Assembly (NCBI GenBank): GCA_028293565.1 | Contig: JAQGON010000121.1 | Location: 1 to 60,216 of the forward strand | Direction: 5' to 3' | Length of the DNA: 60,216 nt | From: Verrucomicrobiota bacterium | Lineage (GTDB): Bacteria; Verrucomicrobiota; Verrucomicrobiia; Opitutales; Opitutaceae | Shown: one piece after another, positions 18,987 to 41,229 of the stretch | How positions within the stretch are numbered: the stretch's first letter is position 1 | Layout of the letters: every line of letters begins with the position of its first letter | Made by a program: the position numbers and the translations under genes | The notes under the pieces: generated by a model | Told to the model about the DNA's origin: nothing | The model's database searches: none | Seen by the model: the letters and a program-made list of their open reading frames with translations, nothing else

Positions 18987-20357
18987 TTACCAGTTCGCCC
19001 GAATCCAGAACGGCCACAGCGGGCGCTGCAGGGATCGCACTCGCGGTGCAATCCGCATGAAGACAATCCGGTAGTAAACGAAATCAAGAATCCTCGCGCA
19101 GAGGGTGAAGAGCCGGACTTTCACCGCTGAGGCGGTCCCGCGCCGCACAAATTGCAGCGTACGGAGCGGAAATTCACTAGCTCCATGGTGGACCTTGTAG
19201 GCGTAGTGTCCGCGCCCGCCCTCGATCACGGTGACTCCTTCCGAGATCAGCGCGTCGACCATCTTGACCAGGCCCATCGTGCCCAGGCTCAGGCGATCCC
19301 ATTCAGCGCTGCGCACGCGGGAGGGAAGGCGCCAATAGACCGTTTTCCCGAAGACAAAACAGTACTGCGCCGAAATCACGGCGTCATCGGCAAGGATGCG
19401 ATAGAATCGAACGCACCCGCGGCCCGCGAGCGCATGAATCAGTTCGCGATTGAACTCCACGGCGTGCGGCCAGTCGCCGAAATGCCCGAGTTTTCCGTCA
19501 GTCCGCCATTGCGTCTCGTGCTGGCGGCAAAATTCTTCGAATGCCGGCGTTGCCCGTTCCTCGTCCGAGATGACATCAAACGTGATCCGATGTGCCTTGG
19601 AGCTCTGGTCCATCATCCGCTTGAAATTGCTCCGCTGTTTTTTATCCAGCTGCTTGAGGTAGGTTTCGAAACTGTCGGGCAAGGCGAAATAGGTATTGCA
19701 CGAATCCCCGCGGGCGCGCACATCGCCGACGATTTCCGGCATTTGGCGGCCGAGCGCCACCAACTGGTCGATCCGGGCATTGGGTCCGGAAAGCGGCCCG
19801 ATCAGCACGAGGTCGCAGGCGCACTCTTCGACGAAGTACCGCAGAACGCGGCCGACAGCTGCTTCAATGAACTCGGGCAGAATCGCGAGATTGCTCAGGT
19901 TGAGCGTATAGTCCGTCCCGACTGGCTTCGCGATGCGCAGGGCTGCGGGACCGATCCGCAGATTCTCGACAAATCCCGGAAACACGCCGATCAGCCGATC
20001 CTGCTCAAAGAAAAGCTGGACGTGCAGCTGCCGTTTGGTTCCGTAATATTTCCACCAGATCTCGCACCACTCGAATGTCTGATAAATGTCGGCGCCCGAC
20101 TGCGCGACCACGGCATTCCACGCATCGCGGAACGGCTCGGCCTCGTTAAACGAATGCAGCACGCGCACCGCTGCATCCTTGGCGGGTTTGGAAGAGGAGG
20201 ATGACTTCGAGTCGCCGGAGAACGCTTCAATTGACTGTTGGAAAAGGGTGCTTTCGCGGGTCATATTCGGCTCGGAGGACCAAAGTGAACGGGAGAACGG
20301 TTGCACGGTGGCTTCGGTAAGCGGCGCTTGGACAAGGTGCTTCAGATCCGGAGCCAT
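18987..20357 (-). CDS. GNAT-type acyltransferase, CelD/BcsL-like family (copy 1)
   Basis: A 456-residue cytoplasmic protein of the double-GNAT CelD/BcsL type found in EPS clusters, where members are thought to transfer acyl groups to the polymer or its precursors. Diagnostic blocks are YQTFEWCEIWWKYYG (about 92-106), GHFGDWP (291-297) and GRGHYAYK (381-388). The same three blocks recur at 29.6-30.8 kb, in the C-terminal half of the 32.0-34.2 kb gene, and at 40.0-41.2 kb. This copy is most like the fused one. The N-terminal 60 residues are low-complexity, with an SSSSS run; a later ATG at 20264 is possible. Donor and acceptor are unknown. Confidence 0.82.
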   Translation of the reverse strand: MAPDLKHLVQAPLTEATVQPFSRSLWSSEPNMTRESTLFQQSIEAFSGDSKSSSSSKPAKDAAVRVLHSFNEAEPFRDAWNAVVAQSGADIYQTFEWCEIWWKYYGTKRQLHVQLFFEQDRLIGVFPGFVENLRIGPAALRIAKPVGTDYTLNLSNLAILPEFIEAAVGRVLRYFVEECACDLVLIGPLSGPNARIDQLVALGRQMPEIVGDVRARGDSCNTYFALPDSFETYLKQLDKKQRSNFKRMMDQSSKAHRITFDVISDEERATPAFEEFCRQHETQWRTDGKLGHFGDWPHAVEFNRELIHALAGRGCVRFYRILADDAVISAQYCFVFGKTVYWRLPSRVRSAEWDRLSLGTMGLVKMVDALISEGVTVIEGGRGHYAYKVHHGASEFPLRTLQFVRRGTASAVKVRLFTLCARILDFVYYRIVFMRIAPRVRSLQRPLWPFWIRANW

Positions 20358-20548
20358 GGTGCGCGCGAGATATTAACGCGACATGTCGGCGCCAGCTGTG
20401 CGGAGGAGTCCCCGGAGAGAACGGACGGGACCACCATCGGGGAGGGCAATCGCATCGCGCTAAGCATACCCGGAAATGCGGGCTCTGTATGTCGGACCCT
20501 GGCGCAATTTCCTGTCAGGCGAAGCCCTACATTTCCCTTTTACGGGCG

Positions 20549-21832: not shown

Positions 21833-21869
21833 GAAAATCGGTTTCCGACGGGATGCGCCGTCTCGCGAA

Positions 21870-23210: not shown

Positions 23211-23229
23211 GCGCGCAGCGACCGGGAGA

Positions 23230-23928: not shown

Positions 23929-23998
23929 GGCGTTCTTCCTCTTTGCCGGAAGCCGCGACCGGAAGCGTTTCGAAAACTCTGCGATCGGTTCAAACGAT

Positions 23999-25462
23999 TC
24001 AGGGGTTCAAAGGTACCGGATTGAGCTTGGGTTGGTCGCGTCTCATGACAGCGGTGACGAGCATCCGCGTGGCCTCGGGAAACGCGAAGGCGGCCACTAC
24101 GAGGGAAACGACGAGGATCGTCAATCCGCAGCTCGCCGCCACCAGAAGGCTCCAATGTCTTGAACCCGCCAAGGCGAGGATGAGGCCCCCGCCGACAAAA
24201 ACAAAAAGATAGCCGATGGCACCCCCCATCTCCCTCAGGTGCACATGCTGTCGGCGGCTCAAACGCACCACCGACACGGCTGCGGCGGCGAGTTCGGCGC
24301 ATAACGCGCAGGCGGCGATGAGATTCACGCTGCCGCCGAGCACGGCGACCGTCGCGGCCAGGGGCAGGCTGATGCCGCGACAGAGGTTCGAGTAAAGCTG
24401 GTTCATCGTGTCCGCGCGTGCCATCGAGGCGATCGCCGGCACGATCCGCAGGAAGCGGACGGCCGCCGCCGCGCCGAGGAGGGCCATGAGAATTCCAAGA
24501 TCCGTGTATTTCGGACCGTAGACGACCGCGGCGAATTGTTCGCCGGCGACGATCAGGGGAAGGGTGAGGGCCACCGCCACGATGCCCGCGTACTGCATGC
24601 AGGTCCGGAATCGCTTGGTGAACTGGCCCAAGTCGTCCTGGGCGCGCGCCAGAATGGGCAGCATGAGCGTTGAGGCCACCCCCGCGAAGATGGTTCCGGG
24701 AATGCTGACGAGCGAGAGCGCCAGTGCGTAGGCGGCGAGGTTTTCCAGCGAGAGGAAGGCCCCGACCAGGATCTGGTCCGCCTGCTGGCTCGCAAAAATC
24801 AGGAGGCCATTGAGCAGAAGGGGCCAGCCAAACCCCCACATCTTGACGATGTATGCCCGCTCCCAGGCCCAGCGATAAGGACGCTTGGCCAGCAGATGAG
24901 TGGTGACGATTGCCATCAGCGCCTTGGCGACCATGAGCCACACAATGACCCGGAAATCGCCGAGCCATTTGGCCATCGGCCATGCCGCCAGCGTGATGAC
25001 GGTTTGCGGAACCAGCTCGTAAAGGGCGGTCGGCAGGTAGTTCAAATCCCGCTGCTGGCGGAAATAATCGAGATGTTCGAAACCCCTGGCCAAGGGGACG
25101 ACGGCCAGAATCACGAACGCCCAGGTGATGTGGGAAACGTGCATGGCTTTCGCCATCGGATAGCTGAGGGCGAGGATCAGGAGCGCCCCGCCCACCGAGA
25201 GCACAAACTGGAAGGCCTGCGACGTTGCTCCGTACGCCACGGAGCCTCCTTCCTTCGATTGGACGATTTGCTGCCCGAAAGCCATCCGGCCGGCGACCTC
25301 GAGCATCACCACGGTCATGCTGAAAACCGCCGCCAGCCCAAAATCGGCCTTCGCCAGCGTGCGCGCGAGGATGATGTTGCGCGCGAAGGAAAGCCCGTAG
25401 CTCACGAGCTGCCCCAAGGTCAAAATCATCGTTCCCCGGAGCAGTTGGCGCGAATCACCCAT
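23999..25462 (-). CDS. Oligosaccharide flippase (Wzx/MOP superfamily)
   Basis: A 487-residue membrane protein with 12-14 predicted transmembrane helices. The N-terminal segment, LRGTMILTLGQLVSYGLSF, is typical of polysaccharide flippases. It should move the lipid-linked EPS repeat unit across the inner membrane for the Wzy-type polymerase at 27.1-28.4 kb. There is only one flippase in the window. ATG 25462 is chosen over a TTG five codons earlier. Confidence 0.9.
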   Translation of the reverse strand: MGDSRQLLRGTMILTLGQLVSYGLSFARNIILARTLAKADFGLAAVFSMTVVMLEVAGRMAFGQQIVQSKEGGSVAYGATSQAFQFVLSVGGALLILALSYPMAKAMHVSHITWAFVILAVVPLARGFEHLDYFRQQRDLNYLPTALYELVPQTVITLAAWPMAKWLGDFRVIVWLMVAKALMAIVTTHLLAKRPYRWAWERAYIVKMWGFGWPLLLNGLLIFASQQADQILVGAFLSLENLAAYALALSLVSIPGTIFAGVASTLMLPILARAQDDLGQFTKRFRTCMQYAGIVAVALTLPLIVAGEQFAAVVYGPKYTDLGILMALLGAAAAVRFLRIVPAIASMARADTMNQLYSNLCRGISLPLAATVAVLGGSVNLIAACALCAELAAAAVSVVRLSRRQHVHLREMGGAIGYLFVFVGGGLILALAGSRHWSLLVAASCGLTILVVSLVVAAFAFPEATRMLVTAVMRRDQPKLNPVPLNP

Positions 25463-25533
25463 GCGTGGCAGTATCAATACAAATTCTGGAAGCGGCCCCT
25501 CGCGTCAAGGAACCGCAGCAGTCGACTCGAGCG

Positions 25534-27096: not shown

Positions 27097-28419
27097 TCAG
27101 GCCGAAACCGGAGAGCTTGCCCATTCAAGGTCAGAACGATGGGAAGGCCGCAGCCTCGCGCGCATCGCCGTAATCGCCGTGCCATGGATCGAACCGATGA
27201 CCGCTAAATTTAGGTAAAGAAACATGACCGATTGGTCGAAGTAGGCGACCGTCACCATCGTCGCTACGTGGCCGAAGAGCGCAGCGCCTGTGCACCAGAT
27301 CAGGAATCGCTCATGAAAAGGAGCCTCGAGGCTGAGCTTGAGCGTTTGATGCACGTAACGAAAGCCCGTCCAAAGCGCACAATTGAAAATTATAATGATC
27401 AGCACGCCGCCATGAATGCCGTAGAAAAGGTAATGGTTGGTAATATCCGCATGATCTTCGCTGAAAGATACTCCATAGGGCATCCAGTGACGCGTATAGT
27501 CAGTGCCACCCAGCCACCATTCACTCAAGTGCGTATTGCCGGCTTCAATAATGGCGGCTCGATGGTAGCTTGAGCTGCTTCCCGTCAGATCGATTTTCTC
27601 CAGCAGGTAATAGGCGGGGCGAGTCATCAGAATATTGCACGCAAAATAAAACACCACGGCGGCTCCGCACATCAAGGGCACGAATCGGCGCCAGCGCCAC
27701 ATCACCACCCCGAAGACCGTGATGAAAAAGGTCATCAGCGGGCCGCTCGAACCGCAGGTAAAGGCCATCGCCAGACACGCGACGAGACCCACCTTGGCGG
27801 CGAGGCGATGTCGCGGCCAAATCCCAAGCATGAACGGAACGCATAGGCTACCGACGGTTCCTGCCAGGATCGGGTGTCCAAAAGGGCCTTGGGCCCGATA
27901 CTTTCCTTCGCGCATCAACACCTCCATCGGCACGCCGCCGAGAAATCCAAACATATTGCGATGGGTGACCACTTCGTTGATCATTTCGAGCGCCACCGGG
28001 ACGATGAGCAGCGCAGTGATCTTGAACACCTGGACCAGGTCCTCCGTGTCGCGACAAAATATCCGGAGGAGGAAATAAATTCCCAAAACATTATAGGCCA
28101 TGCCCAGGTGCGTCACGAGCATATCGCCGAGAGGCTTATGAAATACACTGGCAAGGATGAGCCACGTTCCCCACGCAATAATTAGCATGTCCAGTCCCTT
28201 GAGACCGCCGGGCAGCCGCTCGCCACGCATCTTCGCCCGGATAAAACCGACCAATAATAAGACCCGCAGGACCGTAAAATGGAACGGTCCGATATCGAGG
28301 CTTTGGGCATTGGTCATGTAACACGCCCCCATGAGCAGGGGAAGGGGTGACCACCGCCTCGGCAGGACTAATATTCCCGTGACGGTGGCGAAGAGGAAAA
28401 GGGCGGATATGATGTTCAT
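27097..28419 (-). CDS. O-antigen polymerase/ligase-like membrane protein (Wzy)
   Basis: A 440-residue protein with about 11 transmembrane helices and one larger periplasmic loop between about residues 270 and 330 (RAAIIEAGNTHLSEWW to FSEDHADITNHYLFYG). The HADITNHYLFYGIHGG motif resembles the conserved H...N..L......G region of Wzy/WaaL proteins. With the flippase, the Wzc-like protein and the phosphoglycosyltransferases it makes a Wzx/Wzy pathway. Ligase and polymerase cannot be separated by sequence alone; the location favours polymerase. Confidence 0.86.
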   Translation of the reverse strand: MNIISALFLFATVTGILVLPRRWSPLPLLMGACYMTNAQSLDIGPFHFTVLRVLLLVGFIRAKMRGERLPGGLKGLDMLIIAWGTWLILASVFHKPLGDMLVTHLGMAYNVLGIYFLLRIFCRDTEDLVQVFKITALLIVPVALEMINEVVTHRNMFGFLGGVPMEVLMREGKYRAQGPFGHPILAGTVGSLCVPFMLGIWPRHRLAAKVGLVACLAMAFTCGSSGPLMTFFITVFGVVMWRWRRFVPLMCGAAVVFYFACNILMTRPAYYLLEKIDLTGSSSSYHRAAIIEAGNTHLSEWWLGGTDYTRHWMPYGVSFSEDHADITNHYLFYGIHGGVLIIIIFNCALWTGFRYVHQTLKLSLEAPFHERFLIWCTGAALFGHVATMVTVAYFDQSVMFLYLNLAVIGSIHGTAITAMRARLRPSHRSDLEWASSPVSA

Positions 28420-29580: not shown

Positions 29581-30807
29581 CTAGATATCATAGCGAAGCC
29601 AAAACTCCGATTGCGACACACCCAGCCATTTTGGCAGTCGAGGCTGGAGTCTGCGGTACCAGATGCCTCGGACAATTTTCAGCGCCAGTTTAAAGAGGAG
29701 CAGGAAGATGCGCGTCCGAAAATTTCTGATCCCGTCAACTGAAGTTATCTGCCACGTCCCCACTTCGATCTGTTTTCCACCGAGCCGGGTCTTGTATTCG
29801 TAACGGCCGAGTCCGCTGTTGACCTTTGATATCCCGATCGAAATTCCCGATTCGATGAATTTCAGATATGCCGTCGTGCCCAAACCCAAGCGGTCCCATT
29901 GCTGGCCCACCAGCCGCGAAGGCAATAACGCGTGAATCGTGTTGCCCGCGCGATAACAGTACCGGTTGGCCATCAATCGATCATCCAGAAGCAGCCGGAA
30001 GAAGCAGAGCTCCCGGCGGGGATTTTTCAGTCGCACCAGGTCCCGGTGATATGCAATCGCGCGAGGCCAGTCGGCAAAATGCCCGCGCTGTCCCGTTGCA
30101 TTCCATTGCTCGGCATGCTGGAGAAGAAATGTTTCAAATTCCGCCGGGCCGGCGGTTCCGCGCAGGATTTCGTTGTGGACCGAGCCCAAAGACGAGAGCT
30201 GGCGGATTTTTTTAAGGCGGGCTTTCAATTCCTCCTTCCCGAATGTCTTCAGATATTCTTCAAACGTCTCGGGCAGGTCGAAAACGGTGACAACATCGCG
30301 GGAATGCCAGGAGGCTCGATTCATGAACCCGTTGGAGTGGGCGGCCTCGCGAAAGGAATCGGCGGCCGACCATTTCGCCGAAATCGGCCCGAAGGCCAGA
30401 AGATCGACCCCATCGCGCCCGAAAAGCTCCCGCGTGATTTCCATCAACGCCTCCCGCCCGTAAGCCGCCTCGAGCGGCGGATCGAACGCCTGCGGGGGAA
30501 TGTTCGCGCCGACCAGCCGCGCCAGCCGGATTCTTGCCGGCCAGATGCCGATCGTTTCAATGTAGATCGGGACGACCCCGACCAGCTGCTCGCCGCTCTC
30601 GAAAACGAAAATCCGCAGCGTCCTTCCGTTTCCATAGTGTTCCCACCACGTGCGCGACCAGTCGTACATCATGCAAATGTTGCCTCCCAGCCTCACCACT
30701 TTGTCGTCCCAGCGGTCCTCCCACGCCTCCAAGGCCTTGAAGTCGCTCTCGATGCGAACTTTCAGCGGCGGCATGGCGGGAGAGGAGGAGCTAACGTCGT
30801 GTACCAT
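29581..30807 (-). CDS. GNAT-type acyltransferase, CelD/BcsL-like family (copy 2)
   Basis: A 408-residue copy of the EPS-associated GNAT family. The three marker blocks are MMYDWSRTWWEHYG, GHFADWP and GLGRYEYK. It is closer to copy 4 (40.0-41.2 kb) than to copies 1 and 3, since both have DW.RTWWEHYG. One change from the other copies is GHFADWP for GHFGDWP, an alanine for glycine. The ATG at 30807 follows the aminotransferase-like gene by 25 bases on the same strand, so the two are probably co-transcribed. The acyl donor and acceptor are unknown. Confidence 0.8.
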   Translation of the reverse strand: MVHDVSSSSPAMPPLKVRIESDFKALEAWEDRWDDKVVRLGGNICMMYDWSRTWWEHYGNGRTLRIFVFESGEQLVGVVPIYIETIGIWPARIRLARLVGANIPPQAFDPPLEAAYGREALMEITRELFGRDGVDLLAFGPISAKWSAADSFREAAHSNGFMNRASWHSRDVVTVFDLPETFEEYLKTFGKEELKARLKKIRQLSSLGSVHNEILRGTAGPAEFETFLLQHAEQWNATGQRGHFADWPRAIAYHRDLVRLKNPRRELCFFRLLLDDRLMANRYCYRAGNTIHALLPSRLVGQQWDRLGLGTTAYLKFIESGISIGISKVNSGLGRYEYKTRLGGKQIEVGTWQITSVDGIRNFRTRIFLLLFKLALKIVRGIWYRRLQPRLPKWLGVSQSEFWLRYDI

Positions 30808-30832
30808 TGGAACCGTGCGAGGGGGAAACCTC

Positions 30833-32002
30833 CTAGGCGAACTGGGCGACAATTTCGCTGATGTAGCTTAAATGCCGCCCATTCAATTGCTGGTGAATGG
30901 GCAGCGTCACGACATTATTCTTCAGCCAGCAGGCATCCGGAAAGTGGGACCAGGACAAGCTCTTCTGGTGGTACCCTGCCCACCACGGATAGGCGCCGAT
31001 TCCCCGGCGGAGCAGCGCCTCGACGAAACGATCGCGATCCCCGACGACTAATGGCAGCGAAAGCGGACAAACCCTCTCCGGCAGCTTGGGAAAAAGCGGT
31101 TTGACGCGTCCGACACCCCCTAGCGCCTGAGCGAGCCGGACGTAATTATTCCGACGCGCCTCCCGGATTTTTTCCCAGTCAGCGCCTCCCGCCGCCAGCA
31201 AGGCCTGCGGGTGCATGCTTCGGTTTTCGTGCCGCGCCGGATCGAAATAATAACTGTCGGGCATCGGCGGAAACGATCCGTCGTCCGTCGTCGATGGCTT
31301 CCTCCCCAAGCTTTGCTTCGCGGACAGCGCCGCTCCGTAAAGCCCGACCGATTCTAAGGCGCGAAAAGCGGCGGCCCGGACCGACGTGCGGATCTCCCGC
31401 CGAAAGGTGTCCGCCGGCGGAGGCTCCAATGCGAGCACCTTCACTTCGTGCGACTTTGAAAGCGAGAGGAGTCCTCCGTGATGGAATCCCAGCGTCTTCG
31501 GCAGGCTGAATATCGCCGCATCGCTGACTTGGCCGATGGCGCCCGTCTGGCCCTCGCTGAAAAGGGACAGCGCGCAGTCCTCGATCAGCATCACACCATG
31601 CTGGTCACACCATTTTCGCAGGTCCGCCATTGGCTGTTCCCAGCCAAAATAGTGGATCACGTAGACGGCCTTGGTCCGCGACGTTTTTCGTGCGGCCAGA
31701 TCCTTGAAATCGACGGCTCCCTCACGCGTGACGTTGTAGCCGGCAAGGCTTGCGCCCAAATGGAGCAGCGGGTCGATCTCGGATCCGCAGTTGTACGCGG
31801 GGACCAGCACTTCGTCGCCGGCTCCGATTCCGAGGAGCCGGCACGCGAGCGCGATCGCCGTGCGGCCCCGGTAGGTGGCAATCACTTGCCGGTCGCGAAA
31901 TTGCGGCCAGTCCCGGGAAACGGCAACCGGCGAGCCCGCGCGTCGGAACCACTCGGTGGCCGCCACGGCCGGACTGCCGCAATAGAGGGTGCGGTTTACC
32001 AT
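30833..32002 (-). CDS. DegT/DnrJ/EryC1/StrS-like PLP aminotransferase-fold protein (divergent)
   Basis: A 389-residue protein of the sugar aminotransferase fold. Recognisable elements are GRTAIALACRLLGIGAGDEVLVPAYNCGSEIDPLL near the N-terminus and VMLIEDCALSLFSEG with the PLP-binding Asp. FSLPKTLGFHHGGLLSL holds the probable Schiff-base lysine. It differs from the regular DegT enzyme at 50.5-51.7 kb, having SLPK instead of FYPGKNLG. The substrate is unknown. The real start is the ATG at 32002, which overlaps the stop of the GT-GNAT gene in ATGGTAA; the long open frame upstream is only a shadow of that gene. Confidence 0.75.
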   Translation of the reverse strand: MVNRTLYCGSPAVAATEWFRRAGSPVAVSRDWPQFRDRQVIATYRGRTAIALACRLLGIGAGDEVLVPAYNCGSEIDPLLHLGASLAGYNVTREGAVDFKDLAARKTSRTKAVYVIHYFGWEQPMADLRKWCDQHGVMLIEDCALSLFSEGQTGAIGQVSDAAIFSLPKTLGFHHGGLLSLSKSHEVKVLALEPPPADTFRREIRTSVRAAAFRALESVGLYGAALSAKQSLGRKPSTTDDGSFPPMPDSYYFDPARHENRSMHPQALLAAGGADWEKIREARRNNYVRLAQALGGVGRVKPLFPKLPERVCPLSLPLVVGDRDRFVEALLRRGIGAYPWWAGYHQKSLSWSHFPDACWLKNNVVTLPIHQQLNGRHLSYISEIVAQFA

Positions 32003-34218
32003 ACCGCGCGGATCCAGACCACCCAGAGCGGACGGCGAAGGAAGGGAAATTTCCGAGCCGCTCGCACAAAGAGGACCTTGAAATAAACGATATCCAGAAA
32101 CCTGGCCAATAACCTGAACAGGCGCATGCGAACGGTCACGCCAAAGCCGCGGCGCACAAATTCGACCGTGCGCAGCGGTGACTCGGTTCCTCCCAGCTGG
32201 ACCTTGTAGCTGTAGTGCCCGCGGCCGCCTTCGATGACGCGGCTGCCCTCTTCGATCGTCGCGGCGATCATCTTGATCAGCCCCATCCGCCCGAGGCTCG
32301 ACCGATCCCACTTTGCCCCCCACACCCGGGCCGGCAGCCGCCAGTAGCTCGTGCCGCGAAACACGAAACTGAACTGAGAGGAAATGACCTCGTTGTTGGC
32401 GAGGATGCGGTGAAACCGCACCATCCCCTTTGCTCCGAGGACACGCACCAGGTCCCGCGTGTAGGCCTCGGCTCCAGGCCAGTCCCCGAAATGCCCGAGT
32501 TTTCCCTCGGACTGCCATTGGGCGTCGTGCAGTCGGCGAAACTCCTCGAACTCGGCCTCGACCTTCGCCGGGTCCGAAACGGCGTCGAACGCCAGCGGAT
32601 GAAGTGTCGAAAGCTGGGTGACCGTCCGGGTGAAGTTGCCGCGTTGCTGCTTGCCGATGCCTTTGAGATAGTCCTCGAACGAAGCCGGAAGGTGAAAATA
32701 GGTGTTCCCCTCGCTGCCCGAGGTGCGGGTCGTCGCGACGAGCCGGCGCTTCTCCTGCCCAGCGGCGAGGATCTCATCCAGCCGTGCCGCCGTCCCCGCG
32801 AGCGGCCCAAACAGCAGGACGTCGCACGCCTGGTTTCCCAGAAAATGGTCGAGCGCCTGCGAAACCGCGGGGCGCAGTGCGGACGACAGCACCGGGAGAT
32901 TGCACAGATGAATGGTGGAATCCCCTCCGACCATTTTTGCCGCCTTCACCCGCACCGGTCCGAGCCACAGAATCTCCGTGAACGCCGGTATGATCCCGAC
33001 CAGCTCCTCGCCGGAATAAAACAGCAGGAGATGCAGCTGGCGCCGATCCCCGTAATGCTTCCACCAGATCCGGCACCAGTCATAGGTTTGATAGACATCG
33101 CCCCCAGCGCGCACGACAAGGTCGTCCCATTGGTTGCGCAGGGTTTCGGCCGCTTCAAACGAAGCCGTGACGCGCAGGGTCACCGGCCCGGCGCCCGGCT
33201 CCGATTTGACCGGCGATTCCGCGGCCAAGGGATAGGCGACCGCCGCTCCCGGATCGCCTTTGCGCGGGAGCCAGATCGGCCGGAAGAGACCTTTCAGGTG
33301 CGCGAACAGGGCGGTGAACCGGCTGCGCAGCAGCCGTGGCTGCGCGGTCTTTCGCGCAAGGTGAATCACATCCAGTACGATCCATGCCGGCAGGCGGAGC
33401 AAAAAGCCGGCGAGGAGGAAAAGGTTCGCGCACCACGCCACCACGGGCCCGCGCCGCTTGTGCAGCACGAGCACCGGCGACATGCACTCGATGACCCGCA
33501 GCGCGCGCCGCGCTTTTTTCGAGGAAAAGCGATGGAGGTGGATGATGGTGGCGCCGGGAAAATACGTGATCCGCCAGCCGGCGCGCTTGATCCGGCTGCA
33601 CCATTCCTCGTCCTCGCCGTACATGAAGAAGTCTTCGTCGAATCCGCCGACCGCCGCGATGACCCCCCGCGGCAGCATCGCGAAGCAGCCCGCGACGACA
33701 TCGACGTCGGTTGGGTCCTTGAACTGCCGCCGAAAGTACCGGCCAAAGTTGAGGGTCTCCCGACGCACCGATCCCATCGGCAGCACGCGAATCCAAAACA
33801 CCTCCAGCAGATCGTTGAACCGGTAGCAGCTGGTTTGAAACGACCGGTCGGGAAACTCGACCCGGCAGCCGAGCATTCCGATGCCCGGGTTGGCGTCCAG
33901 ATAACGCACCGATTCCTTCAGCGCGTTCGGCAGGACCACGGTGTCGTTGTTCAAAAGCAGCACGTGTCTTCCTCTCGAAACCGCGAACGCCTGATTGTTG
34001 GCCGCGGCGAATCCCCGGTTCTGCTCGTTGCAGAGGATGATGACCTCGGGGTAATCGCGTCGCACCACGGCCACCGATTCGTCGGTGCTCGCGTTGTCCA
34101 CGACTATGACCTCGAAGGTCACTCCCTGCGGCGCACCATGGATTGAGGCGAGGCAGTCCCGCAGGACGACCAAACCGTTCCAGTTGATGATGACGATTGA
34201 GAGATCGGGAGGCGTCAT
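31996..34218 (-). CDS. Fusion: GT2 glycosyltransferase plus CelD/BcsL-like GNAT acyltransferase (copy 3)
   Basis: A 740-residue two-enzyme protein. Residues 1-320 are a WbbL-type family 2 glycosyltransferase: VIINWNG, VVDNAST, LNNDT, then FDEDFFMYGEDEEWCSRIKRAGW, with one hydrophobic patch after residue 265. Residues about 345-740 are a complete copy of the GNAT family, with YQTYDWCRIWWKHYG, GHFGDWP and GRGHYSYK. The GNAT part is closest to copy 1. The two domains are joined in one unbroken frame, with no internal start that would fit a separate gene. This suggests that sugar transfer and acylation are coupled on the same precursor. It starts 7 bases after the FemAB gene and overlaps the next gene by 7 bases. 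Confidence 0.87.
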   Translation of the reverse strand: MTPPDLSIVIINWNGLVVLRDCLASIHGAPQGVTFEVIVVDNASTDESVAVVRRDYPEVIILCNEQNRGFAAANNQAFAVSRGRHVLLLNNDTVVLPNALKESVRYLDANPGIGMLGCRVEFPDRSFQTSCYRFNDLLEVFWIRVLPMGSVRRETLNFGRYFRRQFKDPTDVDVVAGCFAMLPRGVIAAVGGFDEDFFMYGEDEEWCSRIKRAGWRITYFPGATIIHLHRFSSKKARRALRVIECMSPVLVLHKRRGPVVAWCANLFLLAGFLLRLPAWIVLDVIHLARKTAQPRLLRSRFTALFAHLKGLFRPIWLPRKGDPGAAVAYPLAAESPVKSEPGAGPVTLRVTASFEAAETLRNQWDDLVVRAGGDVYQTYDWCRIWWKHYGDRRQLHLLLFYSGEELVGIIPAFTEILWLGPVRVKAAKMVGGDSTIHLCNLPVLSSALRPAVSQALDHFLGNQACDVLLFGPLAGTAARLDEILAAGQEKRRLVATTRTSGSEGNTYFHLPASFEDYLKGIGKQQRGNFTRTVTQLSTLHPLAFDAVSDPAKVEAEFEEFRRLHDAQWQSEGKLGHFGDWPGAEAYTRDLVRVLGAKGMVRFHRILANNEVISSQFSFVFRGTSYWRLPARVWGAKWDRSSLGRMGLIKMIAATIEEGSRVIEGGRGHYSYKVQLGGTESPLRTVEFVRRGFGVTVRMRLFRLLARFLDIVYFKVLFVRAARKFPFLRRPLWVVWIRAVW

Positions 34219-34225
34219 CGGGCGT

Positions 34226-35308
34226 TCAGGCGGGGCTCGCTGCGACCGGATTTGTCTTGGCCTTGCAACGGCGCAGCCATGCGGCGCTGCTCATCACGAT
34301 CCTGCCCAAGGCACCCGACGACCTAGCATGAGCCGGCAACTGCGTCACATCCACGCCGCCGAATCCGCTCTTGAAACTATATCCTCCGGGATTGGTCTCC
34401 GGGTCGATGCCACCAAGATCGTACCCGTGGACGCCGCGCTGCTGCAGCCAGAGGATTGCCTGCCATTGCAGGAAGTACGCGGCCCTGAGTTCGCGCGCCT
34501 GGTCGTTGGTGGCCCCGAGCACATAGATCGCATTATCGCCCATCGCTGAACACACCAGCGCCGCAACCGCGGTCCTGTCCTTCCGCGCTACGAACGTCGT
34601 CATCTTTTGTGCGGCTGGGAGTTCCGCTTGAATTCGGCCGAACTCCTCAACGTCGACCGAGGTCTCAAACTGTTTTTTCTGCCACATCACTTCGTAAAGC
34701 CGGAGAAATTCGCCATACGCCGCGATGCTGTCGCTGACTTCGAACTCGAGCCCGTTTTTCTCTGAGCGGTTGAGGTGGTTACGCCACTTCGGGTCAAGGC
34801 GTTTTCTCATAGCGTCAGGAACAGGTCTCAGGTCAACTAACACCGTGCGATAGGGTGGTACGTCGGGCTGCGGAGTCATTTCCGCGGATGCCAATGCCGC
34901 GGCGTAGGCATCGCCGCGCGGGGTTTCCGGAAAAGCATTGGGAATCAGTTGCAATACGAATCCGCGACGCCGGCCATATTCCGCCTGCAACCGCGACATC
35001 ATTTCGCGGACGATTGCCGGATCGATGGCCTCGCCACGACGCTGGCACAGTGGTCCCCAGCGAAGGTAAGCGATACCCGCCGGCAGCACCGGGACGCGCG
35101 CGATGCGCAGCTGGGCCGCGGCCACCACGGCGCCTCCCGCGCGGATCACCAGGTGGCTCAGGTTTCGCCCGCCCCAGCGAACCGACCCGTAGGCCCACGT
35201 CTGGTAGAGGCTGGCATCGTCGAACTGCGCCACGATTTCACTCCATGACTCCGGAGTCTGGCCGTCCACCTGGACTTCAAAAATGCGCGAAGAAGGAGAA
35301 TTAGTCAC
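34226..35308 (-). CDS. FemAB/FemX-like aminoacyltransferase-family protein (1)
   Basis: A 360-residue protein of the FemABX double-GNAT family. Motifs include SLYQTWAYGSVRWGG, ILRWGPLC-type (YLRWGPLCQRRGEA), and DLGGIDPETNPGGYSFKSGFGG near the C-terminus; that last segment is typical of lipid II:glycine glycyltransferase-like proteins. Such enzymes move amino acids from aminoacyl-tRNA, or acyl groups in EPS-linked relatives, to amino sugars. No peptidoglycan-bridge genes are nearby, so a role on the EPS is more likely than on the wall. The start is a GTG at 35308; longer starts would be TTG and out of family length. Confidence 0.78.
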   Translation of the reverse strand: MTNSPSSRIFEVQVDGQTPESWSEIVAQFDDASLYQTWAYGSVRWGGRNLSHLVIRAGGAVVAAAQLRIARVPVLPAGIAYLRWGPLCQRRGEAIDPAIVREMMSRLQAEYGRRRGFVLQLIPNAFPETPRGDAYAAALASAEMTPQPDVPPYRTVLVDLRPVPDAMRKRLDPKWRNHLNRSEKNGLEFEVSDSIAAYGEFLRLYEVMWQKKQFETSVDVEEFGRIQAELPAAQKMTTFVARKDRTAVAALVCSAMGDNAIYVLGATNDQARELRAAYFLQWQAILWLQQRGVHGYDLGGIDPETNPGGYSFKSGFGGVDVTQLPAHARSSGALGRIVMSSAAWLRRCKAKTNPVAASPA

Positions 35309-35465
35309 GTAGCACGAAGAGGAAACGGCTATCTGGGAAGGTGGGAAGCGGAAAAGGCACGCCTCAGCCGTCGCTTCGGCGAAATCTGCAGACCCGAACG
35401 GCAGCAATTCGTTGCACCGCCGTGTGCGTCATGGGCGCCCGCGAAGCTCGCCGGCATTCCGGAAA

Positions 35466-36134
35466 TCAGCGCAGGCGTTTGAGCGTCTTCCGCAATGAGA
35501 TCGAAATTTGCCGGATTCTGCCGGGGCCGTGGTCAATGAGCTGCCTGATTTCCTCCATCCGCATGCCGCGGGTGATGGTGGTGCGGGGCTGAAGCCAAGC
35601 GTCGTCGTCCGCGAGCCCTCCATCGCTGGTATAAACTCTCCGGTATCCCGCCCGCTTCAGCTCGTTCAGGACCCGCCGGTCATAGGAGCCGAACGGACAG
35701 GCGGCCGTCGTCACCGGTGCGCCACACGCTTCCTCGAGCGCCACCCGGCTGTCGGTCAGCTCGACCCGAAGTTCCTCCGGCGGCAGTCCCCGCCACGCGC
35801 GGTGCGTCGCGCCGTGGCTGCCGATTCCCATCCCGCGATCGCGCAACGTCCGCAGCTGCGCATGCGACAGAAACGTCGGCTGATCGATCCGCGCCGAGCA
35901 GACAAAGAAATCCGCCATGAGTCCGCGGGCGAGAAGCGACGGCAGGATCTGGTCGTGATCCGAGGCATTCCCGTCATCGACCGTGAGCCGGACGTGCGAA
36001 TGCCCGTGAACGAGATCAAGGACGGCGTCGAATGCCGCGCGTTCGAGCCAGCAGTTCCGTTCGCCGTTGTCGACGTCCCGCGTCACCGGCCCGACTCCGT
36101 GGAAATTCAGGATGAGCTTGCGGGGTTGGGCCAT
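35466..36134 (-). CDS. Polysaccharide deacetylase, NodB-like (1)
   Basis: A 222-residue NodB-fold protein. Motif 1 is LTVDDGN (variant of TFDDG, with two Asp residues), motif 2 is GSHGATHRAW (SH..TH, metal ligands) and motif 3 is CPFGSYDRR. All metal and catalytic residues appear present, so it probably removes N-acetyl groups from a sugar. It lacks an obvious signal peptide, so it may act in the cytoplasm on the lipid-linked unit. It lies between the FemAB-like gene and the asparagine-synthetase-like gene; deacetylation would free an amine for those acyltransferases. Confidence 0.83.
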   Translation of the reverse strand: MAQPRKLILNFHGVGPVTRDVDNGERNCWLERAAFDAVLDLVHGHSHVRLTVDDGNASDHDQILPSLLARGLMADFFVCSARIDQPTFLSHAQLRTLRDRGMGIGSHGATHRAWRGLPPEELRVELTDSRVALEEACGAPVTTAACPFGSYDRRVLNELKRAGYRRVYTSDGGLADDDAWLQPRTTITRGMRMEEIRQLIDHGPGRIRQISISLRKTLKRLR

Positions 36135-36177: not shown

Positions 36178-37743
36178 TCAAGGGCAAGGCTGGGTCGGCG
36201 AGGAGGGAAGCGAGACCGGCTGTGACGCGTGAGGCTGCAGATGCGACGCCATTTCCGCGCTCAAGGTGTGCGTCGCCCAAACCCAGGTCGAAAATGGAAA
36301 GTCCAGGTTCCGTCCGACGATGGTTTTGCCGGGATCGCGAAAACCTCCGCAGATCTGGATGACGCGCGACCAAAAGCGCGACACACTGCCCTGAATCCGG
36401 TGGACGACGATCTCTCCGCGGCCCAATCCCCGGTCGAGCCGGAGATGATTGAAGAACCGTTTTCGCAATTCCTGGTTTTTCGGACAACTATAGAACGAGA
36501 CCATCGCTCTCTTCTTGGTGGCGAACATCCCGCGCGGAACCCCCGAGGTTTCGAGAATCCGCCGCGGGATGGGCCGGTCGTAGCTCCCGCCGATGCGCCA
36601 TGGGGCCATTTCCGCCGACCGGGAAATCATCGCGATCTCGCAAATATTGGAGGCAAGGATGCAGGGGAGCGCGATGTTCACATAGCCGTGCTTCAGTCGC
36701 GTCTCCATCAGGCTCATCCCGGTTTGGTCGCCGCGAATGACCTGATCGGTCATCGCCTTGGCCGGCGGATGCGCTTCCCACACGGAATCGCCGTGGTTGC
36801 CGTTAAAGACCACGCCGACGGTCTCCTCTTGCTCGAGCTGCCGGCCCAACGAATCGTAGATCAGCTCGCAGGTCAGCGACCCTTGGTTTTGCCGGCATGC
36901 GACCGCGAGGAAATAGATTTCGTCCGCGGACACTTCCGCGGGAGGCAGCAGATATTCGACCGAAAGGCCGAGGATGTTGGCGATCGGCGTGCCATCGTCG
37001 ATCGCGCGCTTTCGGAAAAAATCCGGGAGGATCGAATTGGACCGGCGGCTGGTGTAGCACCGCGTGATCCCGATTTTCCTGAGCAGGGCGCAGATCGCCG
37101 GGGAATCGTACCCCGCAGAAATTGTCCCGAGTCCTTTCATCGCGAACCGCCGTTTCGAGTCCTCGTAGTTGGCGCGCACGCGACTTAGAATGTCCGTCAG
37201 CATGGCCAGATATCCCTCGTAGCTGGAGATGCGGTGCTGCTTCCCGCGCGCTTCAAAGGAGATTTTGCCGTGGTCGTAGATGATGTTCTCGTAGAACACC
37301 TGCTGGAAGGAGGTGATGCGCGGATGGATGATCCTGAAATCCCGCTTGTAATTCCTCACTCCGGTCGTCGTCGCGCCGATCGCTTCGTCGACATAAGGGT
37401 GGTCCGGATCGAGGCGCGCGCCGGTGTGGCCGAGGAGGAGCGGCAGGCTGTTCGAGACGAGGGTCGTGTCCCCATCGCGGCACAGCAGCAGCCGGTCCTG
37501 CGTGGTCGAGGCGCATACGAAATAAATGCGGTCCTCCCATTGCCTGATTCCGCTTCCGAAAAAATGTTCGCTGCGATGAAACATCCCATCCGAGAAGTCC
37601 GAATCCCAGACTCCCTCGACCATCCAGTCGGCATGACATTCCACAGCTCGGCCATGGAAAACCACGAGCTGCCCGTCGGCATCGATCTTGGCCAGCCAGC
37701 TGAGCTTGGGGAGCGCCGGAACGCAGGTGTATCGAATGCTCAT
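36178..37743 (-). CDS. Asparagine synthetase-like protein lacking the N-terminal catalytic cysteine
   Basis: A 521-residue protein. The N-terminal 170 residues resemble a degenerate glutaminase domain (CRDGDTTLVSNSLPLLLGH) but have no Cys at position 2 (MSIRYTCVP). The second half has a PP-loop-like ATP motif, SAGYDSPAI, and GNHGDSVWE in place of the usual GxGGDE. It may ligate or amidate an acceptor using ATP with another nitrogen source, or be an adapted EPS enzyme. A uronic acid such as GlcNAc3NAcA carries a carboxyl that could be amidated; this is inference. It is divergent from the next gene cluster at 37.9 kb. Start ATG 37743 is used; ATG 37776 is possible. Confidence 0.75.
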   Translation of the reverse strand: MSIRYTCVPALPKLSWLAKIDADGQLVVFHGRAVECHADWMVEGVWDSDFSDGMFHRSEHFFGSGIRQWEDRIYFVCASTTQDRLLLCRDGDTTLVSNSLPLLLGHTGARLDPDHPYVDEAIGATTTGVRNYKRDFRIIHPRITSFQQVFYENIIYDHGKISFEARGKQHRISSYEGYLAMLTDILSRVRANYEDSKRRFAMKGLGTISAGYDSPAICALLRKIGITRCYTSRRSNSILPDFFRKRAIDDGTPIANILGLSVEYLLPPAEVSADEIYFLAVACRQNQGSLTCELIYDSLGRQLEQEETVGVVFNGNHGDSVWEAHPPAKAMTDQVIRGDQTGMSLMETRLKHGYVNIALPCILASNICEIAMISRSAEMAPWRIGGSYDRPIPRRILETSGVPRGMFATKKRAMVSFYSCPKNQELRKRFFNHLRLDRGLGRGEIVVHRIQGSVSRFWSRVIQICGGFRDPGKTIVGRNLDFPFSTWVWATHTLSAEMASHLQPHASQPVSLPSSPTQPCP

Positions 37744-37924
37744 CGCGGGGTGGGGCAGAGGTGGGCTCGAGTGCATGAATTGCGCACCAGGGGACGAGTC
37801 CACGGCGAACATGGCCACCGCGCCGGGCGGAAGCAAGGAGCAGGGGGGGCGCCGATGCGCCGCGTAATTAGTTTGTCGTCTCCGGCAATCGGAGGCATCG
37901 GGAAAAGGTTCGCGCGGCCACGGT

Positions 37925-38902
37925 ATGAAATCTCCCCGTTTTTCTGTCGTTGTTCCCACGTTCAATCGGGGCCCGTTCGTCGCCGAAGCGATCGGAAGCA
38001 TCCTGGCCCAGACCGTCGCTCCGGACGAAATCATCGTGGTCGACGATGGCTCGACCGACAACACGCCCGAGATCCTGGCGGATTTCGGCGACCGGATCAT
38101 CGTCCTGCGTCAGCCCAACCGCGGCGTGAGCGCAGCGCGGAATGCGGGCATCGAGCACGCCCGTTCCGACTGGGTGGCGTTCCTGGACTCCGACGATGTC
38201 TGGCACCCTTATCGTGTCGCGCTCTTGAAGAAAGACCTCGAGACCGCGGACGCCGGGGTGCATGTCGCCAATATTCTTCTCACCGGTCCGGGATTCAGCC
38301 GGCAGCTTTTCGAGCTGCGTGGATTGCGCGGCAGCGGAGTCTGGCCCCTGCGACATCCGGACGGCTTCGAGTTTGCGATGAAGGATCCCTATTTGAGCGG
38401 CATCGCCGCGCGGCGCGACTGGCTCACGGCCGCCGGGGGGTTTGACGTCTCCATTCCCTATTGTGAGGACGTCGATCTCTTGTGCCGGATGATTTTTCTC
38501 GGCCCTTGGCTGGCGAACGGGACGGTGGTCGCCGAACTCCGCCGGGTGGGGCCGACGAGCGAGACGCTTTCCCATCGCATCCGCACCGAGCGGGTTTCGG
38601 CCGAGGCGGTGAAGATAAAGACGTACGGAAAACTGCTCGGGACGCTGCCGGCCAATTCGGACCGCGCCAAATTGATCCGCCGGATGATCAGCAAGAACTG
38701 GTATAATTCCGCGAAAGCGCTCGACGGGGACGGGCACCGCCGGAAGGCCGCGGCGCATTTGATGCAGTCGGGCCGGGTGCATCCCACGGCGGCGGGCTGG
38801 GCGCGCGCGCTGCCCCCGCTGTTGGTCGGAAGCCAAGGTTACGCCCTGCTCGAAAAATTGAAAAAGCCGCAATTCTACCGCGACGCACCGGCCAGCCGCT
38901 GA
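37925..38902 (+). CDS. Family 2 glycosyltransferase (1, plus strand)
   Basis: A 325-residue GT2 enzyme. It starts with FSVVVPTFNRGPFVAEAIGSIL, then VVDDGSTDNT (nucleotide-binding Asp), QPNRGVSAARNAG and FLDSDDVW (metal-binding DxD). It should add a sugar to the lipid-linked EPS unit, at the cytoplasmic face. It and the next gene form the only plus-strand EPS pair, lying divergently from the asparagine-synthetase-like gene. The two have separate starts 24 bases apart. The sugar donor is not deducible. Confidence 0.88.
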   Translation: MKSPRFSVVVPTFNRGPFVAEAIGSILAQTVAPDEIIVVDDGSTDNTPEILADFGDRIIVLRQPNRGVSAARNAGIEHARSDWVAFLDSDDVWHPYRVALLKKDLETADAGVHVANILLTGPGFSRQLFELRGLRGSGVWPLRHPDGFEFAMKDPYLSGIAARRDWLTAAGGFDVSIPYCEDVDLLCRMIFLGPWLANGTVVAELRRVGPTSETLSHRIRTERVSAEAVKIKTYGKLLGTLPANSDRAKLIRRMISKNWYNSAKALDGDGHRRKAAAHLMQSGRVHPTAAGWARALPPLLVGSQGYALLEKLKKPQFYRDAPASR

Positions 38903-38925
38903 ATCGGCGGGATGACTTTTGATTC

Positions 38926-39873
38926 GTGATCGACGTCTCCATCATCGTTTGCACGCGGAACCGGGCGGACAGCCTTCGCTCGACCTTGGAAACCCTTCAA
39001 TCGGTCGCGATTCCGATGGGTTGGACAATCGAAGTCCTGATCGTGGACAACGGGTCGACCGACGACACCCGCGCCGTGATCAGCGACGCCTCGTCGGGAA
39101 ACAGTCTGATCCGTTATCTGTCCGAGCCCGCCGCCGGCGTGAGCCGGGCGCGAAATCGCGGCCTGCGCGAGTCCGCGGGCAAAGTCATTCTATTCACCGA
39201 TGACGATGTCCGCGTGCCGACCCATTGGCTGAAGGGGATGTGCGAGAAGATTCTCAAAGGAGAAGCCGATGCGGTGGCGGGCGGGATTATTTTTCCGGCT
39301 CATATCGCTTATGCCTTCCATGAAAAGCCCTTGAATGCGCGGCGGGGCTGGTTCGCATCCAGCGACTATCTGAATCCGGATAATCCAAAGAGCATGATCG
39401 GGGCGAACATGGCTTTCTCCCGCCGGGTGCTCGAAAAGGTCCCCGGCTTTGATCTCGAACTGGGTCCGGGCGGAGTTGGCTCCGGAGAAGAAACGCTTTT
39501 TTGCAAGCAGCTGCGGACGGCCGGCTACCGGCTGGCCGGGGCATTGAACGTGACCGTCGAACATCACTTTGACCTGCGGCGGACTTCCCGCGAGGCGTTA
39601 TTGGAACTCGCACGAATCAAGGGACGCACCGCCGCGTTCATCCTCTATCATTGGGAACATCAACCCGTCCCGCTGCACATTCCAAAACTCGGCATTTTCC
39701 ATCTTGCGCGGCAACTCGTCCGGCTGATCTCGAAAGCCGGGCAGTCCGTCGAGAGGCGGACTTTCGGCGGACTGCTGCGATTCGAGGAAAAAGTCACCTT
39801 CCTCGAGGAATACCGTCGGCAGCAAAAACGTTCGCGAAAATATGCCCATCACGGCCTGACGCCGTTAACCTGA
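38926..39873 (+). CDS. Family 2 glycosyltransferase (2, plus strand)
   Basis: A 315-residue GT2 enzyme starting with a GTG (IDVSIIVCTRNRADSLRSTLE). It has VDNGSTDDT, SRARNRGLRES and FTDDDVRVP, the latter carrying the DDD metal-binding site. Near residue 150 ANMAFSRRVLEKVPGFD leads to GSGEETLFC, the acceptor-side motif. It follows the first plus-strand GT by 24 bases and is probably co-transcribed with it. A GTG start is chosen because it directly precedes the beta-strand motif. Confidence 0.87.
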   Translation: MIDVSIIVCTRNRADSLRSTLETLQSVAIPMGWTIEVLIVDNGSTDDTRAVISDASSGNSLIRYLSEPAAGVSRARNRGLRESAGKVILFTDDDVRVPTHWLKGMCEKILKGEADAVAGGIIFPAHIAYAFHEKPLNARRGWFASSDYLNPDNPKSMIGANMAFSRRVLEKVPGFDLELGPGGVGSGEETLFCKQLRTAGYRLAGALNVTVEHHFDLRRTSREALLELARIKGRTAAFILYHWEHQPVPLHIPKLGIFHLARQLVRLISKAGQSVERRTFGGLLRFEEKVTFLEEYRRQQKRSRKYAHHGLTPLT

Positions 39874-39874
39874 A

Positions 39875-39936: not shown

Positions 39937-39987
39937 TCCAAACAACGCAACGATCGCAAAGGGATCGAAGCCGCCGCTGCCCAAGCC

Positions 39988-41229
39988 TCAATAGTCGAAG
40001 CGCAGAAATGACCGCCACTGATGACCGCGGAAGCTCCGCGGCAAACGCGGCTGGATCCGGCGGAACCACATCTTCCTATAGCCGCAAGCGATGGAATATT
40101 TGATGATATCGCAGGCCCACTTGCGCGCGCGCGACGGCAGTCCCCTTTTTAGAATATGAAAAACGACGGTGCCATGCTCGATCGCGCCGAGTTCCAGCTT
40201 GTAGGGATAGTGACCCATCCCGGCTTCGACGCGTTTGATGCCCTCCTTGATCGCGGTGCCGATCATCGTGAGCGCCGCCGTGGTCCCGAGGCGAAAGTCG
40301 TCGAATTCGTTGCCGGTTTCACGCGCGGGCAATTCCCAATAATAGCAGCCGCCAAAGGCAAAAACATACTCGCTCGCGAGGACCCGTTCGCCCACCCGGA
40401 TCCGGGTGTAGCGCATCCGGCCCAGGGCTCCTTGGGTCTTGACCAGGGCTAGGTTGTAGGTGCGCCCGTCCGGCCAGTCGCCGAAGTGGCCGGGTTTTCC
40501 CTCCGCCTGCCATTGCCGCGCGTGCTGCACCGAGAACCGTTCGAATTCGGCCTCGAGTCGCGAGGGCTCCGACACGACGTCCGTCAGCACGTCGGTGTGG
40601 ACTTTCTTGATCGGCCGAAGTTCGTACCGTCCCCGGTACTTGGTTCGGCTCTTGCCGAAGGGAATCATGAATTCCTCCATCGAGTCCGGAAGATAGAACA
40701 CTGAGTGAACGCCCTTGACGTGCCGCGAAGTGCACGCGGACGACGACCACTTCCGGCTCGCTTCGAGCAATTGCCGCCACGACGGATTCTCCGATGAAAC
40801 GGGCCCGAAGCTCAGCAAATCGCAGGACTCACCCTCCAGCAGGGACCTGACGAGTTTTTCGAAAACCGCCTTGGCGAAGTCGCGGTGAACCGGAGGATCG
40901 AAAACCTTCGGCGGGATATTTGCCCCCAGGAACCGGGCGATCTTCATCCTCAACGGCCAGATTCCGATGGATTCAAGGTAGACCGGCACGATCCCCACTA
41001 CTTCGTCGCCGCTTTCAAAAATATAAAGCCGGAGAGCCTTTCCTTTCCCGTAGTGCTCCCACCACGTCCTTGTCCAGTCGAAGGTCATGTAGACCGTTCC
41101 CCCCAACGCCTCCGTGGCCTCGTCCCATTGGGTTCGGAATGCCGCGAGGTCATCGAAATTCACGGCGATCCGGACCTTCAGCTCCGTCCGGTCCCTTTCC
41201 GAAGCAGAACATTTTTCTGCTGCGATCAT
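39988..41229 (-). CDS. GNAT-type acyltransferase, CelD/BcsL-like family (copy 4)
   Basis: A 413-residue copy of the EPS-associated GNAT family with MTFDWTRTWWEHYG, GHFGDWP and GMGHYPYK. It is closest to copy 2 (29.6-30.8 kb); both share WWEHYG and a similar C-terminal region (WFRRIQPRLPR versus WYRRLQPRLPK). It converges on the plus-strand GT pair and lies before a GT2/deacetylase block. The acyl group and sugar are unknown. The four copies fall into two pairs (1+3 and 2+4), which suggests at least two rounds of duplication. Confidence 0.82.
   Translation of the reverse strand: MIAAEKCSASERDRTELKVRIAVNFDDLAAFRTQWDEATEALGGTVYMTFDWTRTWWEHYGKGKALRLYIFESGDEVVGIVPVYLESIGIWPLRMKIARFLGANIPPKVFDPPVHRDFAKAVFEKLVRSLLEGESCDLLSFGPVSSENPSWRQLLEASRKWSSSACTSRHVKGVHSVFYLPDSMEEFMIPFGKSRTKYRGRYELRPIKKVHTDVLTDVVSEPSRLEAEFERFSVQHARQWQAEGKPGHFGDWPDGRTYNLALVKTQGALGRMRYTRIRVGERVLASEYVFAFGGCYYWELPARETGNEFDDFRLGTTAALTMIGTAIKEGIKRVEAGMGHYPYKLELGAIEHGTVVFHILKRGLPSRARKWACDIIKYSIACGYRKMWFRRIQPRLPRSFRGHQWRSFLRFDY

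Follow-up and report, generated by a model that had tools for sequence, protein, structure and literature searches.

The window analysed here, a stretch of 60,216 nucleotides from a verrucomicrobial bacterium of the Opitutaceae (assembly GCA_028293565.1, contig JAQGON010000121.1), forms one of the 239 contigs of a 4.16 Mb genome. It carries an exopolysaccharide (EPS) locus with genes for an initiating transferase, a Wzc-like protein, Wzx, a putative Wzy, several family 2 glycosyltransferases (GT2), two polysaccharide deacetylases, two DegT aminotransferases, a pyruvyl transferase, a hexapeptide protein and a membrane acyltransferase; an exosortase and a PrsK-type kinase are located at one end. 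Within this locus, four genes, denoted c1–c4, encode homologous tandem-GNAT proteins (Table 1). Four homologous copies in one polysaccharide locus had been claimed in an earlier note, and the four open reading frames are indeed present on the minus strand, with all products belonging to Acetyltransf_6 (PF13480; 63.4–79.9 bits against a gathering score of 22). Two further relatives, the FemAB-like genes at 34226–35407 and 49446–50516, had been missed, and the window thus holds six of the seven PF13480 matches of the source genome.

By BLASTP, over about 400 residues, c1 and c3 are 49–50% identical, c2 and c4 37–38%, and the cross pairs 30–34%; with E-values of 4e-60 to 2e-148, the likeness is not due to chance. 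The three shared blocks noticed earlier are real: 12 residues (W27, W44, W48, P74, H227, W231, G238, F240, W243, R294, K335 and G339, numbered along the 403-residue c1 domain) are invariant in all 35 family sequences aligned, c1–c4 included. Because these residues are kept and all four frames are open over the full length, none being broken, the copies look functional and, judging from their sequences, divergent enough for differing specificities. Their GC content is 0.58–0.63 and their base composition unremarkable.

Table 1 Coordinates of the c1–c4 genes and of other features of the EPS locus in the window
Feature	Position	Strand	Evidence and remarks
c1, tandem-GNAT (predicted FemX-fold) transferase	18987..20357	-	PF13480 79.9 bits; 56–58% identical to the single copy found in the same-genus genome G006/L018
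c2, tandem-GNAT transferase	29581..30852	-	PF13480 64.2 bits; ATG start probably at 30807, frame also opens from TTG at 30852
c3, tandem-GNAT domain, C-terminal part of a 740-residue fusion	31996..33240	-	PF13480 63.4 bits
GT2 glycosyltransferase domain, N-terminal part of the fusion	33241..34218 (boundary approximate)	-	PF00535 84.8 bits
c4, tandem-GNAT transferase	39988..41229	-	PF13480 72.6 bits
Exosortase, XrtC-like	10300..11250	-	PF09721 157.2 bits; TIGR04151 261.7 bits, under the cut-off of 300
Wzx-type flippase	23999..25477	-	PF13440 132.7 bits
Putative Wzy-type polymerase	27097..28419	-	Unmatched in Pfam and NCBIfam; homologues at 14 of 26 loci
DegT/DnrJ/EryC1-type aminotransferase	30833..32005	-	PF01041; recurrent neighbour
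FemAB-like transferase (FemA)	34226..35407	-	PF02388 and PF13480; recurrent neighbour
Polysaccharide deacetylase	35466..36134	-	PF01522 80.2 bits; recurrent neighbour
GT2 glycosyltransferase	41455..42420	-	PF00535 62.9 bits; homologue in G006 adjoins the sole GNAT copy there
Second polysaccharide deacetylase	42369..43910	-	PF01522 78.2 bits; weak PgaB/HfsH/IcaB matches under cut-off
Initiating phosphoglycosyl transferase	44295..45737	-	TIGR03025 411.7 bits, over the cut-off of 295.55
Wzc-type chain-length determinant/kinase	46997..49252	-	TIGR03007 67.0 and TIGR01007 53.0 bits, both under cut-off
Second FemAB-like transferase (FemB), exosortase-locus type	49446..50516	-	PF02388 and PF13480; TIGR03019 137.8 bits, cut-off 260.35

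An AlphaFold2 model of c1 built on the 35 sequences has a tandem-GNAT fold with a predicted local distance difference test score (pLDDT) of 95.5 and a predicted template modelling score of 0.92. Fold comparisons refer to this model and extend to c2–c4 by homology only, a model of c2 made without an alignment being uninformative (pLDDT 38.8). In VIA-align, the c1 model scored highest with FemX (6snr; Z 24.0, root mean square deviation 3.3, 304 residues aligned), followed by FemA (22.9), Sba18 and Sbb17 (19.8–20.1), MprF and aminoacyl-phosphatidylglycerol synthases (17.6–18.9) and 2hqy, a Bacteroides protein of unknown function (18.0), whereas tandem GNATs dependent on coenzyme A (CoA) reached at most 15.1. 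Foldseek likewise ranked FemX (E 3e-11) and Sbb17 on top and gave lower template modelling scores (TM-scores) to the CoA-dependent GNATs. In profile comparisons, the family motif GHYAYK aligns with GGYSFK of a FemA-like profile (probability 97.8), and that profile in turn with the FemX segment YVFKH, which ends at position 306 and so has its lysine at position 305. The correspondence between the family lysine, present in 35 of 35 sequences, and FemX Lys305 was thus obtained by two-step profile alignment; the preceding position 334 is Tyr in 29 sequences and His in six. Given this alignment, the Y.YK block is probably the catalytic motif. Lys305 of FemX is called catalytic, and the equivalent Lys329 of DhpH-C essential, in excerpts of PMC12945691.

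Two further features of the family bear on the donor and on the location of the proteins. The last 52 residues are strongly basic, with an average of 12.1 Lys or Arg against 1.0 Asp or Glu in the 35 sequences and a net charge of at least +7 in each; by analogy, this tail could mediate membrane binding, like the HfsK tail, or tRNA binding. The pattern [RQ]xxGx[GA], which we take to be the CoA loop motif of GNATs, is found in the domain-2 segment of two of the 35 sequences, in both cases judged by eye to be misplaced, and in the domain-1 segment of none, although degenerate loops are possible.

The c3 gene differs from the other three in that a single frame spans a GT2 domain and the transferase, joined by a linker of about 25 residues. 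In loci L019–L021, the GT2 is encoded by a separate upstream gene, which adjoins the transferase gene in a different frame and stops close to the transferase start, near the fusion point; the fused GT2 domain matches these separate GT2 proteins with 484–516 bits and the one of the same-genus genome G006 with 156 bits. No second GT2–transferase fusion was found among the frames of the loci examined. The junction may be an assembly error; error or not, a joint function is likely, because the two genes naturally adjoin elsewhere. From its sequence, the fusion would tie one copy to one glycosyltransferase.

The origin of the four copies was addressed with two trees, of 40 and 41 rows, the second including the added sequences L110, L111 and L116. 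Both omitted the two pieces of a broken copy in L043 and the too weak L036_5054; left out of the second were also L117 (half length), L120, L109 (the same match line as the L029 genome) and the five distant outgroup rows of the first, L112, L118 and L119 serving as the outgroup. In the larger tree, the sister of c1 is the sole copy found in G006 (100/99), and that of c2 is L111, which comes from a different family of the class (42% identity; 100/99). The c3 domain groups with genes of Verrucomicrobia and Lentisphaerae, namely L019, L020 (Lentisphaerae) and L021 (95/98). The nearest relative of c4 is L029 (42% identity); c4, L029 and L110, the last two also verrucomicrobial, meet in a fork without resolved order inside a five-row clade that includes c2 and L111. 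The earlier note had divided the copies into two pairs, c1 with c3 and c2 with c4; percent identity bears this out, but neither pair is a sister pair in this tree, so that pairs by identity are not pairs by duplication. Local duplication, for which the note had proposed a tree as the check, is unsupported, the nearest relatives being in other genomes. A c1+c3 clade was rejected in both trees (approximately unbiased test, p-AU 0.0007 with 40 rows, 0.00014 with 41 rows) and a c2+c4 clade more weakly (p-AU 0.021 with 41 rows), many deep branches being without firm order; in the first tree c2 and c4 were sisters (99/88), a pair that broke up once L110, L111 and L116 were added. Scattering of the copies among genes of other species, which the note had named, together with mutants of identical EPS, as a refutation, was therefore seen, but speaks against duplication only and not against specialisation.

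The G006 locus is syntenic with the window over the Wzc (74% identical), initiating-transferase, DegT, FemAB, Wzx and pyruvyl transferase genes. Its single copy adjoins DegT, where the window has c3, whereas c1, the closest relative of that copy, lies at the far end of the window locus beyond an FrhB gene; G006 is 83% complete, and further copies elsewhere in it are possible. We read these patterns, on sequence grounds, as copies gathered by exchange of repeat-unit genes between related loci, although old paralogy with losses may be the alternative.

The family is rare. Scanning a collection of 84,980 species genomes with two peptide patterns, which reaches only genes carrying both, yielded 26 loci, in Verrucomicrobia, Lentisphaerae, Planctomycetota, Omnitrophota, Deltaproteobacteria/Myxococcota, two Alphaproteobacteria and one Mycolicibacterium. 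With the source genome included, matches were found in two of 252 genomes of its taxonomic family, in two of 387 sampled from its phylum and, using a fuller profile, in five of 384 sampled from its class, among them G661, which lacks the GHF.DW block; a planctomycete sample gave seven of 392, centre genome included, several being weak or partial. PF13480 as a whole (E 1e-8) matched nine genomes in a 59-genome sample of the phylum, led by the source genome with six and G058 with three. Family members occur in Mycolicibacterium (L028), Methylobacterium sp. C25 (L023; one match in a genome not marked as metagenome-assembled) and a Rhodobacteraceae genome (L035), and the sisterhood of the Mycolicibacterium and Rhodobacteraceae genes in the tree (100/99) suggests transfer between phyla.

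The copy number of the window is unusually high, as the earlier note had held. Among 26 other carrier genomes, chosen for carrying the family so that the counts are conditional on that, 19 have one match, four have two, two have three (spread over three contigs in one case) and one, G640, has four; the expectation of zero to two copies per locus thus fits roughly, and no genome of this set has four intact copies. The four matches in G640 represent three gene positions, of which two are interrupted by internal stops, and L043 (8517–9911) likewise pairs an intact family copy with an interrupted one, which points to turnover. On a planctomycete chromosome (L034, 8594–12567), three tandem family copies adjoin a homologue of the asparagine-synthase-like gene of the window.

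Family members are embedded in a recurrent neighbourhood. When window proteins were compared with the frames of the 26 loci (best match of at least 25 bits, flanks of up to 10 kb, some contigs being shorter, such as L019 with 3 kb and L027 with 6 kb), homologues of FemA and of the GT2 fused to c3 were found at 22 loci each, of either deacetylase at 21, of the putative Wzy at 14 and of DegT at 13. An exosortase homologue lies within the flanks at one of the 26, and most have none close by. As controls, we used 13 loci of the source phylum, nine surrounding other PF13480 genes and four being Wzc loci that lack the family; read by eye, these contained FemA in none, GT2 in two, deacetylase in none, the putative Wzy in one and DegT in none. 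Treating loci as independent, the Fisher p-values for 26 versus 13 loci are 3e-7 for FemA, 5e-5 for GT2, 1e-6 for deacetylase and 0.001 for DegT. In an Omnitrophota contig (L037, 6187–9503), a row of three FemA-like genes adjoins the family member, and around the c4-like L110 (locus L123) homologues of FemA, deacetylase, GT2 and Wzy are present, DegT not being found.

The window itself is an exosortase-bearing EPS locus, with PF09721 matched and both the VPDSG-CTERM and TIGR03025 models exceeding their cut-offs. Its exosortase is closest to the VPDSG-specific XrtC type, though under the cut-off of that model. A tandem pair of VPDSG-CTERM-type proteins is encoded on the plus strand at 141–872 and 1251–1982 (DNA about 70% identical); against a cut-off of 22, the former passes with 27.5 bits and the latter falls narrowly short with 21.6. 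The Wzy assignment, made from hydrophobic sequence and position, is putative. Lys170 of the DegT aminotransferase, read as the pyridoxal phosphate lysine, is kept in 13 of 13 homologues, and the solved relatives of this enzyme are for the most part sugar aminotransferases. The family profile of FemA matches FemX with E 1.9e-22 (6snr) and 8e-20 (1ne9). Two GT2 genes on the plus strand (37925–39873) interrupt an otherwise mostly minus-strand locus. The adjacent minus-strand protein at 36178–37920 contains a SAGYDS motif, presumably resembling that of asparagine-synthase-type ATP pyrophosphatases; it has no NCBIfam match, and its longer frame no Pfam match. No tRNA genes were found within the window.

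Several known systems resemble c1–c4 in part. FemX, FemA and FemB share with them the predicted fold over about 300 residues (Z 22–24) and the Lys305-type motif, but at 11–13% identity, with no PF02388 match in c1–c4 and in a peptidoglycan rather than an EPS context. Sbb17 and Sba18, aminoacyl-tRNA-dependent peptide synthases of an antibiotic pathway, are alike in fold, and their PDB titles name complexes with streptothrisamine, which we take to be an amino-sugar compound. CelD/BcsL-like acetyltransferases of cellulose loci presumably belong to the same broad Acetyltransf_6 family, although no CelD/BcsL-specific model matched c1–c4 in Pfam or NCBIfam searches. The FemAB protein of XrtA/PEP-CTERM loci (TIGR03019) is resembled, below cut-off, by FemB; FemA scores 35.4 bits with this model and c1–c4 have no match. 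HfsK of the Caulobacter crescentus holdfast is a tandem GNAT with FemX as the nearest solved structure and, on indirect evidence, a role in polysaccharide modification in a system that also includes a polysaccharide deacetylase, HfsH; it binds cyclic di-GMP (c-di-GMP) and requires its C-terminal extension for membrane binding and activity (excerpts of PMC5362036 and PMC8449245). HfsK and its paralogues, however, lie outside the hfs locus (excerpt of PMC8449245), whereas here four copies share one EPS locus and one is fused to a GT2. PapO of the Pap locus of Pseudomonas fluorescens F113, likened here by description, is of the cellulose-biosynthesis/GNAT type with low FemX homology and lies in an EPS locus with deacetylases; it is the single such protein, beside an unrelated acetyltransferase (excerpt of PMC7716237), and the text of that paper does not mention an exosortase. 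There is thus precedent for FemX-fold proteins occurring in polysaccharide systems that include deacetylases.

We tentatively favour, at somewhat less than an even chance, a reading in which c1–c4 form a rare FemX-fold subfamily that aminoacylates amino-sugar precursors of the EPS at the membrane, each copy with its own sugar or donor. The earlier note had proposed that each copy acylates a different sugar position or uses a different acyl donor; the donor may instead be aminoacyl-tRNA rather than acyl-CoA. Computation shows the homology, the intact motifs, the predicted fold of c1, the recurrent neighbourhood, the fusion and the tree positions, from which catalysis, donor, acceptor, membrane site and separate specificities are inferred. 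Each transferase would work on the cytoplasmic side of the membrane, to which its strongly basic, aromatic tail would bind it, and would pass an aminoacyl group from aminoacyl-tRNA, as in FemX and Sbb17, to an amine of an amino sugar linked to a lipid or a nucleotide. Such amines would come from the aminotransferase and deacetylases encoded nearby, with the adjoining GT2 attaching the sugar. The four copies would have been united by separate acquisitions, or would be old paralogues left by losses, and each would therefore probably serve a different sugar or donor.

A number of observations weigh against this reading. A shared fold and lysine do not suffice to prove a tRNA donor, PF13480 is named an acetyltransferase family, and differing specificity is read from divergence alone. 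The FemAB model PF02388 gave no match with c1–c4 at E 0.01, and searching PDB sequences with the family profile returned nothing convincing. By Foldseek E-value, CoA-dependent GNATs (2wpw, 1.5e-9; VipF, 2.8e-9) interleave with FemA (2.6e-9) and MprF (3.9e-9), and the pattern [RQ]xxGx[GA] is present somewhere in 13 of the 35 full-length sequences. The control set is small, with only four of 13 being clear EPS (Wzc) loci; against these four alone, the p-values are 0.003 for FemA, 0.005 for deacetylase, 0.11 for DegT and 0.17 for GT2, and a FemAB gene of the other sort, like FemB, is present in three of the four. DegT genes of another sort, found in three of the 13 control loci, reduce the specificity of the neighbourhood. 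Within about 10 kb around L111, of the c2 lineage (locus L122), none of the four neighbours was found, the surroundings holding an O-antigen-ligase-like gene and beta-helix proteins; L042 also lacks all four, and L034 has only DegT. In Hirschia baltica, holdfast binding did not change when HfsK and its paralogues were deleted, which speaks against a general role (excerpt of PMC8449245).

The same fold data can be read as acyl-CoA-dependent N- or O-acyltransferases, each using acetyl or another acyl donor for a different position, an alternative we doubt but regard as quite plausible. It is in keeping with the name of PF13480, with the Foldseek E-values that place some CoA-dependent GNATs level with FemA and MprF, with the Z of 15 reached by CoA-dependent tandem GNATs such as a glucosamine N-acetyltransferase, and with very weak matches of c1 (23.6 bits) and c3 (18.9 bits) to an NCBIfam model named crotonyl transferase (cut-off 775); against it, CoA-dependent structures rank under FemX, Sbb17 and MprF by Z and TM-score, the FemX-type lysine is invariant, and a well-placed CoA loop motif was not seen in the 35 sequences. 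We find it improbable that repeated mixing of loci left redundant or partly superfluous copies, with the DegT-adjacent c3 doing the work. The syntenic G006 locus with a single copy next to DegT would fit, as would the turnover implied by internal stops in G640 and the patchy spread of the family among the Opitutaceae, but loss of function would have eroded the 12 invariant residues and the four open frames. That c1–c4 are regulatory FemX-fold domains, sensing c-di-GMP and steering EPS enzymes with catalysis secondary, is suggested by HfsK and by the basic tail that c1–c4 also carry; it is very improbable, as both the catalytic-type lysine and the GHF.DW block are strictly conserved.

An extended form of the aminoacylation reading, which we consider unlikely, would enlist up to six FemX-fold enzymes (c1–c4 and the two FemAB-like proteins), each placing its own tRNA-borne amino acid on a defined amino sugar exposed by the aminotransferase or deacetylases, with one fused to a GT2, to yield an EPS with a programmed amino-acid pattern made by transferases collected from several lineages. 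The set of four different, apparently intact copies suggests, short of proof, a heavily decorated coat polymer. A search of open-licence papers by title and start of abstract found no description of the gene neighbourhood of the family or of aminoacyl-tRNA-dependent EPS, which is a weak negative; so far as that literature goes, what may be new is that four lineages meet in one locus, that one copy is fused to a GT2 and that this subfamily has a shared gene neighbourhood across phyla. As the locus shows by example, several distantly related transferases of one family can come together in an EPS cluster without having been duplicated locally. The neighbourhood of GT2, transferase, aminotransferase, deacetylase and FemAB genes in several phyla provides a concrete gene set, of which the GT2 fusion names one partner. 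If aminoacyl-tRNA is indeed the donor, the make-up of the biofilm matrix would depend on substrates of translation, as is already the case for peptidoglycan bridges and aminoacylated lipids.

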